Shown: in pieces, positions 1 through 33,713 of the stretch
Position numbering within the stretch: the first letter of the stretch is position 1
How the letters are laid out: every line of letters begins with the position of its first letter
Assembly (NCBI GenBank): GCA_913061495.1
Contig: CAJXVG010000010.1
Span: 1 to 33,713, forward strand
Source of the DNA: an uncultured Winogradskyella sp.
GTDB taxonomy: Bacteria; Bacteroidota; Bacteroidia; Flavobacteriales; Flavobacteriaceae
Reading direction: 5' to 3'
Length of the DNA stretch: 33,713 nt
The notes under the pieces: model-generated
What the model was told of the DNA's origin: nothing
Seen by the model: the letters and a program-made list of their open reading frames with translations, nothing else
Database searches by the model: none
Program-made: the position numbers and the translations under genes

Positions 1-47
1 CTACACGTAAGGAGTCGTCGGCAGCGTCAGATGTGTATAAGAGACAG
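1..47 (+). other. Illumina Nextera P5-side adapter (artefact)
   Basis: This is library adapter and not genome. Bases 1-6 match the end of the P5 primer, 7-14 (GTAAGGAG) match the Nextera i5 index known as S505/N505, 15-28 match the read-1 adapter and 29-47 are the 19-bp Tn5 mosaic end. The order is exactly that of a Nextera library molecule. Genomic sequence starts at about 48. Confidence 0.98.
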
Positions 48-766
48 AAATAATAAAGCACAATTGCCATACCTGCTAAAGCAACAATAGAACCTATGAT
101 GCCAAGCTGAACACTTTTCCAAATAAATGGTCTCCTAATAAAGCTCTTGGTTGCGCCAACCATTTGCATCGTTTTAATAATAAATCGTTTGGAATAAACA
201 GCCAATCTTATAGAGCTGTTAATCAATAATACTGCAATTAAAGTAAACAGTCCGCTGATAACCAATACCCAAAAGGTAATTTTTTTAACGTTGTCATTCA
301 TCAATTCCACCAAATCGTTATCGTACCTAGTTTCTTCAATAAATGCTTTTGTAGAAAGACCTTCTGTGATTTCAGATAACTTTTCAGTAGTCACAAAATC
401 TGCTTTCAAATATACATCTATGGAATTTTTTAACGGATTGTAACCCACAAAATCCATAAAATCTTCTCCAGTTTCAGATTTCATTAGTTCAGCAGCTTCC
501 TCTTTAGAAACATAAACCGCTTCTTTGGTGTAATCTGCCATAGCTAAAGTTTTCTTTAGCTGATTTACTTCAACCTCTTTCGCAGTATCATTCAAATAAA
601 TGGTCATTACCACTTGCTCTTTAAAATGATCGGCTACTTTTTTTGAGTTAATGACCAATAGTCCCAAGCATCCTAAAAGGAACAAAACCAATGCAATACT
701 GATAACGACTGAGATATAAGAAGAAATAAGTTTTCGTTTTTGATACTTATCAAAAGATGATGCCAT
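48..766 (-). CDS. ftsX: Cell-division ABC transporter permease FtsX (partial)
   Basis: FtsX is the inner-membrane partner of the ATPase FtsE and activates peptidoglycan hydrolases at the division site. The reading frame begins with ATG at 766 (MASSFDKYQKRKLISSYISV) and runs off into the adapter at 47, so about 239 codons are present and the C-terminal end is missing. Visible parts are an N-terminal cytoplasmic stretch, a first membrane helix (SIALVLFLLGCLGLLVI), a periplasmic domain of about 130 residues, then a helix (FWVLVISGLFTLIAVLLI) followed by the family segment around IKTMQMVGATKSFIRRPF. A third helix starts just before the break. It is divergent from leuS. The call rests on the membrane layout and the MVGAT-type motif. 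Confidence 0.88.
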
Positions 767-858
767 GGATTAATACGAATTAGTGCTGTAAAAATAAAAA
801 ACAATTTGCTTATGCAGACTATTACAACGTTTAGTTTTTTATTGTGTTGTAATAGGTT

Positions 859-866
859 TAAATTTG
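859..866 (+). promoter_or_regulatory. Putative -7 promoter element for leuS
   Basis: TAAATTTG fits the Bacteroidota -7 consensus TAnnTTTG and lies 26 nt before the leuS ATG. No well-spaced -33 TTG is obvious (the nearest is about 14 nt upstream), so this is tentative. Confidence 0.4.
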
Positions 867-892
867 CACCTTATTTCAAGTAATACAGGACT

Positions 893-3800
893 ATGCAGTA
901 CGATTTCAATCAAATCGAAAAAAAGTGGCAAGACTACTGGGCAAAAAACCAAACGTTTAAAGCTGTAAACAATTCAGATAAACCAAAATATTACATTTTG
1001 GATATGTTCCCTTATCCAAGTGGAGCAGGCTTACACGTCGGTCATCCATTAGGTTATATAGCGAGTGATATTTATGCACGTTACAAGCGTCATAAAGGCT
1101 TTAACGTATTGCACCCACAAGGTTATGATAGTTTTGGTTTACCTGCAGAGCAGTATGCAATTCAAACAGGTCAGCATCCTGCTGTAACAACCGAAGAAAA
1201 TATTAAAACCTACCGCAGACAATTAGACCAAATAGGGTTTTCCTTTGATTGGAGTAGGGAAGTACGCACCTCAGATCCTCAATATTATAAATGGACACAG
1301 TGGATCTTTATTCAACTGTTTGAATCTTATTTCTGCAAGGATTCCAATATGGCAAAACCGATTTCTGAATTGATTGCAGTGTTTGAAGCTGAAGGGAATT
1401 TAAAAATAAATGCTGAATGTGATGATAATATTGAGCCTTTTACAGCTGAAAATTGGAACAGTTATTCATCTAAACAACAACAAGAAATTCTATTAAAATA
1501 CAGACTGACCTATTTAGCCGAAACGGAAGTAAATTGGTGTCCTGCACTAGGAACGGTTTTAGCCAATGACGAAATTGTAAACGGAGTATCGGAAAGAGGA
1601 GGACATCCTGTTGTCAGAAAAAAAATGACACAATGGAGTATGCGAATTTCTGCTTATGCAGAACGTTTGCTTCAAGGTTTAGATACTATTGACTGGACAG
1701 ATTCACTAAAAGAAAGCCAACGTAATTGGATTGGGAAATCGGTTGGAGCGTCAGTTATCTTTAATGTCATTCCGACAGAGCGCAGCGACGAGAAATCTCA
1801 TAAAATCGATGTCTTCACCACAAGGCCAGACACCATATTTGGAGTCTCATTTATGACACTAGCTCCAGAACACGACTTAGTTTCAAAAATAACAACTCCA
1901 GAGCAAAAAGCCGAAGTTGAAGCCTACATAGAAAAAACAGCAAAACGAAGTGAGCGCGATAGAATGGCAGATGTAAAAACAATTTCGGGTGTGTTTACCG
2001 GATCGTATGCTGAACATCCATTTACAAAAGAACCAGTTCCAATCTGGATTGGCGATTACGTTTTGGCAAGCTACGGAACAGGAGCAGTTATGTCTGTGCC
2101 ATGTGGTGACCAACGCGATTATGATTTTGCAAAGCATTTTAATATTCCAATTCCAAATATATTTGAAGGAGTTGATATTTCTGAAGAAGCCTATGGCTCA
2201 AAAGAAAATGTAAAGATTACCAATAGTGATTTCCTCAACGGAATGAACATGAAAAAGGCAACCAAACGTGCCATCTACGAATTGGAACAATTAGGACAAG
2301 GAGAAGGGAAAACCAATTACCGTTTACGCGATGCTGTGTTTTCTCGTCAGCGTTATTGGGGCGAACCATTTCCGGTTTATTACGTAAACGGAATGCCGCA
2401 AATGATAGATGCCAAACATTTACCATTAACATTACCCGAAGTTGAAAAATATTTACCAACCGAAGAAGGTGAACCACCTTTGGGACGTGCAGATGTTTGG
2501 GCTTGGGATACAAATACAAATCAAGTAGTTTCAAATGAACTTGTCTTTCCGACAGAGCTCAGCGACGAGGAATCTCACAACGGAATCTACCCTTTAGAAC
2601 TAAACACTATGCCAGGTTGGGCAGGCAGCTCTTGGTATTTTTTCCGTTATATGGAAGAAAAAGCCAATAGAGACGATGCTTTTGCCACAGAAGATGCACT
2701 TAAGTATTGGGAAAATGTAGATTTATATATTGGAGGAAGTGAACATGCTACAGGCCATTTATTATACTCACGTTTTTGGGTAAAATTTATGAAAGACCGA
2801 GGATTTGTAAATGTAGAAGAGCCTTTTAAAAAGCTGATTAACCAAGGGATGATTCTTGGGACTAGTGCTTATGCGTATGTTTTAAAAAGGTCTGCAGAGA
2901 TGCCTGAATCTTACATCCAAAAAGACTTTGATAAATTTCAAAGAGCTAAGGAATTTTTAGGTGATTGTGTGAAGAGTTTTATTATCTCAAAGGAATTAAA
3001 AAATAAAATAATTCATGGAACTGCTAATCAAAAAGATTTGGTTGAGATCTTAAAATTTGATAATTGGTTTAACTCTCAGACTAAGCAAAAAGAACTAAAG
3101 ATTTATCTTGAAGAAGTTAAAGCAGAAGATATCAGACGAATTCCTATTCCAGTTGAATTTGTCAATTCTTCAAATGAAATTGATTTTAATTCTTATCATA
3201 AATGGAATCCAGAATATAATTCAGCAGAAATTTTATCAAGTATTGCTGATAGAGAAGTTGAAAAAATGTCCAAATCCAAATACAACGTTGTCAATCCAGA
3301 TGATATTGTAGCAGATTACGGAGCAGACAGCCTACGACTCTATGAAATGTTTTTGGGACCATTAGAACAATACAAGCCATGGAATACAGCTGGTATTACT
3401 GGTGTTCACAGCTTTCTTAAAAAACTGTGGAAATTATATGCAGATGATAATGGATTAAAAGTTAATGATGCAGAGACAACAAAAGATAGCCTAAAAACAT
3501 TACATAAAACCATAAAGAAAGTAGAAGAAGATATTGAGAATTTCTCTTTTAACACGTCGGTTTCTACCTTTATGATTGCTGTAAATGAGTTAACAGCCCA
3601 AAAATGTACAAGCAAAGAAATTTTAGAACCTTTACTGGTTTTAATTTCACCTTATGCACCACATATTGCAGAAGAGTTATGGTCACAATTAGGAAATGCT
3701 GAATCCATCTCAACAGCACCTTTTCCTAAATTTGAAGAAAAATATTTAGTGGAAAGCAGCAAGGAATATCCAATTTCGTTTAATGGCAAAATGCGTTTTA

Positions 3801-3943
3801 CCATGGAATTGCCTTTAGATTTAAGCAAAGACGAAATTGAAGCGGCTGTTATGGCAAATGAAAAAACCCAAAATCAATTGCAAGGTCGCACACCTAAAAA
3901 AGTGATAGTTGTACCTGGTAAAATTGTAAATATTGTAGGATAA
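893..3943 (+). CDS. leuS: Leucyl-tRNA synthetase, enlarged
   Basis: Class I synthetase that charges tRNA-Leu with leucine and edits mischarged products. The HIGH-type motif is HVGH at residues 48-51, the CP1 editing domain contains TTRPDTIFG near residue 310, the tryptophan-rich WAGSSWYF is near 578-585, and KMSKS is at 791-795, followed by an anticodon-binding helical domain and the C-terminal domain. At 1016 aa it is much longer than the 860 aa of E. coli. Two things account for part of the excess. A 39-nt repeat is present in frame twice, giving PTERSDEKSH near residue 295 and PTELSDEESH near 554. A segment of about 85 residues (about 661-748) before KMSKS is longer than I expect for Bacteroidota LeuS. 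All catalytic motifs are intact, so it is presumed functional. A strong terminator follows. Confidence 0.97.
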   Translation: MQYDFNQIEKKWQDYWAKNQTFKAVNNSDKPKYYILDMFPYPSGAGLHVGHPLGYIASDIYARYKRHKGFNVLHPQGYDSFGLPAEQYAIQTGQHPAVTTEENIKTYRRQLDQIGFSFDWSREVRTSDPQYYKWTQWIFIQLFESYFCKDSNMAKPISELIAVFEAEGNLKINAECDDNIEPFTAENWNSYSSKQQQEILLKYRLTYLAETEVNWCPALGTVLANDEIVNGVSERGGHPVVRKKMTQWSMRISAYAERLLQGLDTIDWTDSLKESQRNWIGKSVGASVIFNVIPTERSDEKSHKIDVFTTRPDTIFGVSFMTLAPEHDLVSKITTPEQKAEVEAYIEKTAKRSERDRMADVKTISGVFTGSYAEHPFTKEPVPIWIGDYVLASYGTGAVMSVPCGDQRDYDFAKHFNIPIPNIFEGVDISEEAYGSKENVKITNSDFLNGMNMKKATKRAIYELEQLGQGEGKTNYRLRDAVFSRQRYWGEPFPVYYVNGMPQMIDAKHLPLTLPEVEKYLPTEEGEPPLGRADVWAWDTNTNQVVSNELVFPTELSDEESHNGIYPLELNTMPGWAGSSWYFFRYMEEKANRDDAFATEDALKYWENVDLYIGGSEHATGHLLYSRFWVKFMKDRGFVNVEEPFKKLINQGMILGTSAYAYVLKRSAEMPESYIQKDFDKFQRAKEFLGDCVKSFIISKELKNKIIHGTANQKDLVEILKFDNWFNSQTKQKELKIYLEEVKAEDIRRIPIPVEFVNSSNEIDFNSYHKWNPEYNSAEILSSIADREVEKMSKSKYNVVNPDDIVADYGADSLRLYEMFLGPLEQYKPWNTAGITGVHSFLKKLWKLYADDNGLKVNDAETTKDSLKTLHKTIKKVEEDIENFSFNTSVSTFMIAVNELTAQKCTSKEILEPLLVLISPYAPHIAEELWSQLGNAESISTAPFPKFEEKYLVESSKEYPISFNGKMRFTMELPLDLSKDEIEAAVMANEKTQNQLQGRTPKKVIVVPGKIVNIVG
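1765..1803 (+). repeat. In-frame 39-nt repeat, copy 1, inside leuS
   Basis: This stretch matches 2542-2580 at 35 of 39 bases. It is read as VIPTERSDEKSHK and falls in a loop of the CP1 editing domain just before the TTRPDTIFG motif, where other LeuS proteins have a shorter loop. Core: TTCCGACAGAGC then CAGCGACGAG. Confidence 0.8.
2542..2580 (+). repeat. In-frame 39-nt repeat, copy 2, inside leuS
   Basis: Second copy of the repeat at 1765-1803, in the same orientation and the same reading frame, read as VFPTELSDEESHN. It lies just before the segment that leads to the WAGSSWYF motif. TTCC and GGAA at the two ends of the core can pair, giving a weak hairpin. The four mismatches to copy 1 show that the two are not a recent exact duplication. 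Confidence 0.8.
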
Positions 3944-3947
3944 TCAA

Positions 3948-3965
3948 TTCCTGCGAAAGCAGGAA
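3948..3965. repeat. Short REP-like hairpin
   Basis: TTCCTGCGAAAGCAGGAA is a perfect 7-bp stem closed by a GAAA tetraloop, starting 4 nt after the leuS stop codon. From general knowledge, similar TTCCTGC/GCAGGAA hairpins are scattered through many Bacteroidota genomes. It has no T-tract, so it is not the terminator. Confidence 0.65.
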
Positions 3966-3995
3966 ACTCAAAATTAATTTGAACGACAAAATTTG

Positions 3996-4024
3996 AAGCC
4001 TTCAGAATACTGAAGGCTTTTTTT
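3996..4024 (+). terminator. Intrinsic terminator of leuS
   Basis: A perfect 10-bp stem, AAGCCTTCAG (3996-4005) and CTGAAGGCTT (4010-4019), with loop AATA, followed by a run of seven T (4018-4024). Confidence 0.93.
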
Positions 4025-4041
4025 GTTTTTAATAATGAGAC

Positions 4042-4157
4042 TTCTCGATACAATTTGCTCATGCTTCACAAACCATTCGAAGTGACGTAATGCATTAGAA
4101 TATCTTAGTAGTCAGTTCGAGTGACATTGTTTTTTTTTTGCATTTTTGTATCGAGAA
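4042..4157. repeat. Palindromic MITE-like intergenic element
   Basis: The ends are a perfect 12-bp inverted repeat, TTCTCGATACAA (4042-4053) and TTGTATCGAGAA (4146-4157). Inside, TCGAAGTGAC (4077-4086) pairs with GTCAGTTCGA (4111-4120) at 9 of 10 positions, giving a nested cruciform of about 116 nt. I recall similar TTCTCGATAC/CACTCGAAGTGAC sequences as dispersed repeats in flavobacteria, but copy number cannot be tested here. No clear target-site duplication was seen. Confidence 0.7.
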
Positions 4158-4459
4158 CTTTTTTCAAAAAAAACACTTTATCGAAACTATTATACATTTG
4201 TCTAATAGTGTATTATGTTTAAAATGAGCTGATTATTGATTTTTATTCAAAAAAAAAGCTTCAAAATAATAATTCCATAAAAATGACTTCCACTTGAGGC
4301 TCAAATTTGTTTAGTTTAATTTTTTAATGGTATTTCACATGGCTATTAATCTTAAAATCTGCACTTAAATGGAAAGCGCTTGTTAATTCATTTGAATTAA
4401 ATAAATAAAGCTGAGTAGCGATTTCCATTTTTGCAGATTTATTAAACTAAAATTACCAA

Positions 4460-5560
4460 ATGAAAATAGGAGTCCCAAAAGAAATTAAGAACAACGAAAA
4501 TCGTGTTGGTATGACTCCATCAGGAGTTTTCGAGTTGACTAAAAACAATCATAAAGTATTTGTACAAAAAGATGCTGGTTTTGGAAGTGGCTTTTTTGAT
4601 CAGGATTACATAGAAGTTGGAGCAACCGTTTTAGATACCATAGAGGAAGTTTACGCATCTGCAAAAATGATTGTAAAGGTTAAAGAACCTATTGCAAAAG
4701 AATATCCTTTGATAAAAGAAAATCATGTGGTATTCACCTATTTTCATTTTGCCTCAAGTGAAACACTGACAAAAGCTATGCTAAAAAGTAATGCTGTTTG
4801 TATTGCTTATGAAACGGTTGAAGATAAAGATGGTTCCTTACCATTATTAACTCCCATGTCGGAAGTGGCAGGAAGAATGGCGATACAACAAGGAGCAAAA
4901 TACTTAGAAAAACCCATTAAAGGACGTGGAGTATTATTAGGAGGAGTTCCGGGAGTACCACCTGGTAAAGTTTTAGTACTTGGTGCCGGTATTGTTGGTA
5001 TTCAAGCCGCAAAAATGGCAGCTGGTTTGGGCGCTCATGTTACTATAATGGATATTAATATGAAACAATTACGATATGTAAACGATGTAATGCCAAGTCA
5101 TGTGGTCACTGAATTTTCAAGTGAATATAACATTAGAAAACGCATTAAGGATCATGATTTAATTATTGGAGGTGTATTGGTAAAAGGAGCAAAAGCACCA
5201 AAATTAATCACACGAGACATGTTGAAAGATATGCGGCCAGGAACAGTTTTGGTGGATGTAGCTGTGGATCAAGGAGGTTGTATAGAAACGACTAAGGCCA
5301 CAACCCATGAGGACCCTACTTTTATCATTGATGATGTTGTACATTATTGTGTAGCTAATATGCCTGGAGCCGTACCTTATACTTCTACCCTAGCACTTAC
5401 AAATGTAACATTGCCGTATGTGCTAAGATTGGCAAATGAAGGTTGGGAAAAAGTTTGCGCTAAAGATAAAATGTTGTCCAAAGGTCTTAATATTGTGAAA
5501 GGTAAAGTGGTTTATCAAGAAATTGCTGAAGCCTTTAATTGGTCGGTTGATGCTATGTAA
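4460..5560 (+). CDS. ald: Alanine dehydrogenase
   Basis: NAD-dependent enzyme that interconverts L-alanine and pyruvate plus ammonia. The 366-residue length is usual for the family. The residues used by characterised alanine dehydrogenases are present at matching numbers: R15, K75 (in KVKEP), H96 (in YFHFAS) and D270 (in VDVAVDQGGC). The nucleotide-binding fold has GAGIVG at 175-180 with the acidic residue D198 at the end of the second strand. The ATG at 4460 gives the standard N-terminus MKIGVPKEIKNNENRV. It stands alone behind a long AT-rich upstream region with inverted repeats, which suggests its own regulation. Lrp-type control is common for ald genes, and an Lrp-family gene lies 2 kb away, but that link is inference. 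Confidence 0.96.
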   Translation: MKIGVPKEIKNNENRVGMTPSGVFELTKNNHKVFVQKDAGFGSGFFDQDYIEVGATVLDTIEEVYASAKMIVKVKEPIAKEYPLIKENHVVFTYFHFASSETLTKAMLKSNAVCIAYETVEDKDGSLPLLTPMSEVAGRMAIQQGAKYLEKPIKGRGVLLGGVPGVPPGKVLVLGAGIVGIQAAKMAAGLGAHVTIMDINMKQLRYVNDVMPSHVVTEFSSEYNIRKRIKDHDLIIGGVLVKGAKAPKLITRDMLKDMRPGTVLVDVAVDQGGCIETTKATTHEDPTFIIDDVVHYCVANMPGAVPYTSTLALTNVTLPYVLRLANEGWEKVCAKDKMLSKGLNIVKGKVVYQEIAEAFNWSVDAM

Positions 5561-33600: not shown

Positions 33601-33658
33601 GCCAAACTACATTTTAAGATAAAAGTCTTTGGTGAGATTTGTATAGTCTTCTGTGTAT

Positions 33659-33713
33659 CTGTCTCTTATACACATCTCCGAGCCCACGAGACCGAGGCTG
33701 ATGTCGTATGCCG
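33659..33713 (+). other. Illumina Nextera P7-side adapter (artefact)
   Basis: Bases 33659-33677 (CTGTCTCTTATACACATCT) are the Tn5 mosaic end, 33678-33692 the read-2 adapter, 33693-33700 (CGAGGCTG) match the Nextera i7 index N710, and 33701-33713 match the start of P7 with one mismatch. Not genomic. Confidence 0.98.

Follow-up and report, generated by a model that had tools for sequence, protein, structure and literature searches.

Two in-frame 39-nt repeats in a Winogradskyella leuS gene are probably single arms of a dispersed TGTC-tagged palindromic repeat

Protein-coding palindromes are best known from Rickettsia. In an uncultured Winogradskyella sp., the essential gene leuS contains one 39-nt sequence twice, which raises the question of how the same letters came to stand at two places of a conserved enzyme, and whether they belong to the protein or to a repeat that entered it. 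The stretch analysed here, called the window, is contig C10 (33,713 nucleotides) of a draft assembly of 301 contigs and 3.22 Mb. The features concerned are the following.

893..3943, + strand: leuS, leucine--tRNA ligase, host gene of both copies; 1016 aa; TIGR00396 leuS_bact, 911.9 bits
1765..1803, + strand: copy 1, TGTC-tagged arm; LeuS V292-I-P-T-E-R-S-D-E-K-S-H-K304; site 1, editing domain
2542..2580, + strand: copy 2, identical arm type; LeuS V551-F-P-T-E-L-S-D-E-E-S-H-N563; site 2, before IYPLELNTMPGWAGSS

A repeat search and the codon positions confirmed the pair that had been noticed in the initial annotation: 39 nt, direct, 35/39 identical (90%) and 777 apart, with codons beginning at 1766 and 2543 in an identical reading frame. 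Copy 1 falls inside the PF13603 match (LeuS residues 277-463). We call both sites loops on the basis of gaps relative to the solved 1h3n chain and of their variability; a LeuS model predicted from an alignment of four rows had a mean pLDDT of 34.2 and was set aside. Rfam gave nothing at the gathering threshold in window positions 1-4500. Downstream of leuS lie a hairpin (TTCCTGC/GCAGGAA, 3948-3965) and an inverted pair (4024-4053 and 4146-4175, 77% complementary), which are perhaps further dispersed repeats. At the contig ends, a 20-nt inverted end sequence (29-48 and 33658-33677) looks like what we take to be a Nextera adapter.

A search for the 31-nt core with up to three mismatches hit the window twice and 100 shuffles of it not once; in the whole 3.22-Mb assembly it found just the two leuS copies, and the reversed-pattern control gave 0. 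Exact copies of the core are present between genes in other genomes. With 0 shuffle matches and these exact intergenic copies elsewhere, chance likeness is excluded for the 39-nt family. More generally, we give almost no credence to chance likeness or ordinary loop expansion as the source of the inserts, even though loop lengths vary and 20 of the 31 long loops of other genera that are not of DUF559 size (see below) have no arm by a rule that misses some.

The arm family is dispersed in the genus, 26 of 68 genomes carrying one to four copies (at most two mismatches) at 38 places, with 0 in the reversed control. Reading of the loci assigned 18 of these places to conserved genes and 20 to intergenic positions, so the similar sequences between flavobacterial genes that the initial annotation had described do exist. 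A search of 84,980 named species with the exact pattern gave 27 stretches (29 copies), of which 17 are flavobacterial, eight come from Bacteroidales MAGs (five from one MAG), one from Burkholderiales and one from a gammaproteobacterial MAG. In a family-level sample, 18 of 397 genomes matched within one mismatch, two of the 18 being Winogradskyella. Intergenic copies recur at equivalent places, one set being L009, L021, L025, L030, L033, L035 and L108 and another L008, L011, L019 and L112; presumably these places follow a gene with a RidA-like end and adjoin genes that begin with MIKFF.

A wider pattern, GTCAYTNNGAN{6,22}GANNARTCT, had 13 hits in the source genome and none in the control. Four of these arms are in frame in conserved genes, namely LeuS copy 1, a bacterial alpha-2-macroglobulin (A2M; VIQSDSEES), an E1-type 2-oxoacid dehydrogenase (VIKSDSEES) and, in the opposite orientation, a BioF/Kbl-family enzyme (KILRFALNDNTD), the last two hosts being named from NCBIfam matches below curated cut-offs. 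Another arm lies within a doubtful 118-codon ORF, and LeuS copy 2 is missed because it reads GTCTTT. Contig C11 of the same genome holds a diverged inverted pair of the arm. The wider pattern had 22 hits in genome G054 and 21 in G021 (control 0); among 30 of these 43 hits, seven are in LeuS (three), IcmF, PrmC or GltX, two are in short ORFs and 21 are in no 120-codon ORF, the IcmF arms being both arms of one element. Against a dispersed repeat, the initial annotation had set the picture of two peptides conserved in place in a genome with no further copies. One part of that picture was found, in that no other copy lies within three mismatches, but neither peptide is conserved in place, and the wider class is dispersed in the source genome, with its 13 arms.

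Intergenic elements mostly consist of two different arms joined head to head, with a length of 82 nt in three examples. Such paired arms can fold into a long hairpin: for the four pairs folded, 10, 7, 15 and 1 of 200 shuffles were as good. The single window copies have no such advantage: on the + strand, 177 and 154 of 200 shuffles fold equally well. The stem of the arm family is the 5-bp ATTCC/GGAAT, for which copy 1 has TTCC/GAAA; the sibling family encoding SELVSES has an 8-bp stem and a 5-nt loop, and the arm families share the ends TGTCATT and ATCTCA. Parsing 82 of 361 site sequences as arms gave 42 distinct 4+4 stem pairs; of their 168 paired positions, 99 were complementary, compared with a mean of 54.6 (sd 6.0, highest 80) in 10,000 shuffles; some of the parsed sequences are not elements, a bias that works against the result. 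Nine different fully complementary 4-bp stems were found, the shuffle maximum being seven. Since stems covary across inserts, modules are exchanged whole, with their matched stems, and not letter by letter.

In the collected loci we counted 63 distinct copies, 19 of which are well inside long ORFs (at least 230 codons, with at least 35 codons on each side of the arm) and are called coding, and 44 elsewhere. All 19 coding copies lie on one strand and in one frame, reading V-I-[PS]-T-E-x-S-D-E-[EK]-S apart from substitutions in the more diverged ones. An inverted partner arm (TTCGAAATGACA within two mismatches, at most 120 nt downstream) accompanies one of the 19 coding copies versus 32 of the 44 others (Fisher p 6e-7), and the single coding case, L017, where the partner has two mismatches and is 5 nt away, is probably due to chance. 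The element picture of the initial annotation is corrected accordingly: the unit found in genes is one arm, not the whole palindrome, and the loops are used by several families rather than one. Coding copies lie in LeuS (sites 1 and 2), HisA, A2M, diphosphomevalonate decarboxylase, pyruvate dehydrogenase E2 (PDH-E2) and IcmF; at least one host of each kind was scanned by profile, and the others, among them the majority for A2M and HisA, were identified by likeness. A further LeuS site 1 copy, on contig C11 of G063, is omitted from the coding table and has the identical frame.

The arm is open in four of its six frames, so that a single frame at seven gene sites is unexpected from openness alone. 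As just one of the four stop-free readings of the 39-nt family is found well inside genes, selection most likely removes insertions in the other readings. Under a looser rule (150-codon ORF, any distance from its ends), readings in other frames or on the opposite strand appear in L009, L030, L101, L104, L121, L125 and L132; all of these are close to an ORF end or in short ORFs and are taken as chance open stretches. The one-strand rule is true of the 39-nt family and not of the whole repeat class. Two-arm elements are read through in frame in IcmF (L120, L387/L389), GltX (L401) and HisA (L293), giving peptides such as VISNDSEKS...EEEILRIAQND in IcmF and SVISSDVEKS...DLSTALMMTS in HisA.

A second sample from outside the genus gave the same result. 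It comprised 21 copies in 16 genomes, of which nine were coding, 9/9 in the same frame and strand, and the partner arm was present in 0/9 coding copies versus 10/12 of the rest (55/293930 = 2e-4). The hosts, named by likeness, were LeuS site 1 (three), A2M (two), HisA (two), IcmF (one) and PDH-E2 (one). In these counts, a HisA copy lying in 207 open codons was taken as coding and L410 (180-codon ORF, same frame, partner present) was not; the sample is not fully independent, as the IcmF locus L415 is probably from the same genome as L120 and its intergenic copies may overlap with named contigs already counted.

Site 1 was compared in the 59 Winogradskyella LeuS that are 900 aa or longer: it is empty in 31 and filled in 28, by the 39-nt arm family (7), SSAVETS (7), TSSAVEKS (4), ASEAKQS (3), others (4) or a DUF559-type insert (3). 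Site 2 has the shortest length in 47 of 61 rows and is filled in 14; the 39-nt arm occupies it in the source genome (G000) and G021, whereas elsewhere CHSELVSES, CHSALDAES, CHSEQSEES and others are found. For other genera, LeuS was fetched for 109 of the 120 genomes in the family search, and 108 were readable at site 1: 67 were short, 10 had an insert of DUF559 size, 11 were long with a recognisable arm and 20 were long without one, by an arm rule that misses some visible arms (e.g. L173). The observation that homologues are shorter at both loops therefore holds, and the idea that the leuS copies are exonised copies of a dispersed repeat is supported, with at least seven gene sites in frame and relatives often empty at both loops. 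That the peptide is kept for a function in these proteins, the DNA repeat being secondary, is consistent with its single reading and its presence in core enzymes; however, it is very unlikely in view of the short loop in 31/59 LeuS of the genus and 67/108 of other genera, the unrelated hosts, the covariation of stems at the DNA level and an identity that extends to third codon positions.

The gain at site 1 is +18 nt net for a 36-nt arm; it is below the arm length, so host codons were lost or replaced. A LeuS tree built without the two loops requires at least 23 changes of state at site 1, at least 16 between filled and empty and at least six for the 39-nt family; these counts are approximate, 20 of the 56 inner branches being strongly supported and 16 weak. 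Third codon positions were compared in eight species pairs sharing the 39-nt insert, with flanks of 120 nt on each side; in these pairs, which are not independent, 107/128 positions were equal in the insert and 354/640 in the flanks (by pair 15, 14, 14, 12, 15, 12, 12 and 13 of 16 against 43, 46, 42, 47, 42, 53, 44 and 37 of 80). Four pairs of other families gave 16/18, 12/18, 17/18 and 16/19 in the insert versus 52, 49, 58 and 36 of 80 in the flanks, the second of them, G030/G032 (12/18 versus 49/80), showing little excess. Likeness of the flanks does not rise near the insert (G019/G017: 18/40, 43/80, 92/160, 170/320). A spread of the inserts by horizontal transfer of leuS segments between species would fit their patchy distribution on the LeuS tree, but it is less likely still than a peptide function: third positions in the nearest 60 nt of flank differ as much as more distant ones, so that any tract transferred would hardly extend beyond the insert itself, and the tree was built from LeuS, so that transfer of the whole gene would not raise the count of changes.

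Other loops gave a comparable picture. HisA, readable in 29 of 30 loci, has an empty loop (10 residues) in 11; filled loops hold CHSEQSEES-type, VISTEQSDEKS-type or two-arm inserts, and the source genome has a diverged CHSEQSEES-type insert. In A2M (30 loci), 15 of the 27 readable species carry 13-residue inserts of equal length from different families, such as VIQSDSEES-, VTSSAVEKS- and VSLSAVEGS-types; VIPTERSDEES-types also occur in A2M, and no clearly empty allele was present among the 27. Loops of LeuS site 1, HisA, A2M and IcmF are reused across genera, and the PDH-E2 copy of the second sample lies in a different part of the linker.

These loops bear most directly on the main rival explanation, in which old insertions are refreshed by gene conversion, arms being exchanged later with a change of family and deletions giving the empty alleles. 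The use of identical loops in other genera, the A2M inserts of one length from different families and the greater likeness of inserts than of flanks all speak for it. Several genomes with a coding copy, on the other hand, have no second family copy within two mismatches that could serve as donor, the arm being present in the gene only (LeuS in G014, G017 and G019; A2M in G015, G028 and G059), and empty and filled alleles alternate between near neighbours (at site 1, G012 is empty and G019 filled). As a full account we rate gene conversion as rather unlikely, well behind insertion, but conversion between arms could act alongside insertion.

LeuS site 1 also holds far larger inserts, of 138-211 aa. 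A DUF559-like endonuclease domain is present there in frame in three of the 59 Winogradskyella, PF04480 scoring in the inserts of G029 and G058 (115.9 bits in G058), and the inserts of DUF559 size in 10 of the 108 LeuS of other genera were judged by length and look. The loci with DUF559-type inserts are L094, L095, L099, L126, L162, L163 and L165-L172, the MAG contig L126 having in addition the IPTE arm at site 2. Terminal inverted repeats were tested in nine of the 13 found: L094, L095, L167 and L170 beat all 200 left-end shuffles, L099 tied with them, and L162, L163, L168 and L171 did not beat them. In Winogradskyella, DUF559 domains also interrupt MetH (L345) and RecG (L358, L360, L361) in frame, L345 and L361 having been scanned; by analogy, such inserts may be like inteins or homing endonucleases without splicing. 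No paper holding both DUF559 and leucyl-tRNA synthetase was found in the open-licence literature.

Taken together, we consider it probable that the 39-mers of the window are single-arm copies of a small dispersed, TGTC-tagged (CGTC-REP-like) palindromic repeat, whose arms insert into loops and are then filtered by selection. New arms would arrive as insertions by a trans-acting route, perhaps via single-stranded hairpins at replication forks. Single arms would then settle in those loops of conserved genes that vary, at the cost of some host codons, and would hardly affect how the enzyme works. Several findings weigh against this account: neither a mover nor a donor turned up at the 30 Y1-transposase loci covered (see below), several genomes carry the arm in a gene only, the net gain at LeuS site 1 is smaller than the arm, the looser ORF rule brings out other frames, the pair G030/G032 shows little excess, and random insertion followed by selection does not by itself account for the use of identical loops in different genera. 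It is possible, though we hold it doubtful, that the loops of LeuS (sites 1 and 2), HisA, A2M and IcmF are landing pads common to flavobacterial genera. Palindromic modules of many families, and in the case of LeuS site 1 a DUF559-type domain as well, would then be swapped there by a mechanism that targets these loops, in place of random insertion followed by selection.

The mover was sought beside Y1 transposases. Checked by exact arm words of 10-12 nt, no arm of the 39-nt family was near any of 30 Y1-transposase loci, taken from 50 listed matches, so that a RAYT as mover has no visible link to this family. TGTCACTTCGA, the start of another family, was beside one of the 30 loci. Many of the 50 matches are probably IS200-like or weak matches and not RAYTs.

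Among known systems, the closest are the CGTC-tagged REPs. The parts of PMC3733652 (Di Nocera, De Gregorio and Rocco 2013) that describe them list them for Bacteroidetes, with the tag CGTC, TGTC (in many) or CCTC, a stem of 8-9 bp starting AT, a loop of 4-5 nt, an unpaired tail that is mostly CCA and no dedicated transposase. They form mostly head-to-head dimers, often of two different units, and some lie inside genes, including those of tRNA synthetases (PMC3733652); the word 'leuS' is absent from its main text. Both window copies likewise begin TGTC, and head-to-head pairs prevail (32/44 outside long ORFs, 10/12 in the second sample). The arm differs in its 5-bp stem with a long inner part and in its tail CTCA. 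As stem and tail do not agree, we regard the window family as a variant of the CGTC-REP kind and not as a member. The parts of PMC3733652 considered here give one case of different REPs at about the same recB site in two Xanthomonas, and they do not mention loops that are refilled by many families in several genera. GTAG REPs, as portrayed in that paper, are also short palindromes, often paired; the present family has no GTAG tag and flanks none of the 30 Y1 loci (of 50 listed). A 2025 REP survey (PMC12306157) lists Flavobacterium genomes, and the term 'in-frame' is absent from its main text. Among the matches listed for the open-licence literature, none was, by title and start of abstract, a paper on in-frame palindromes of Flavobacteria.

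The likeness to Rickettsia palindromic elements that the initial annotation had proposed holds in part. These elements (Ogata 2000, 2002), in the portion of the review PMC10969869 dealing with them, are palindromic, about 150 bp long and in frame in unrelated, probably working genes. In-frame insertion into unrelated conserved genes is shared; however, the unit here is a single arm of 36-39 nt and not a palindrome of about 150 bp, and it occurs in a different phylum; the two are likened by behaviour. What Flavobacteriaceae show is turnover, the same loops of an essential enzyme being empty, filled or refilled by different families among species of one genus. Such a series found in nature can be used to study the movement of REP-like DNA, the tolerance of a folded enzyme for inserts and the possible addition of new peptide to proteins by repeats.
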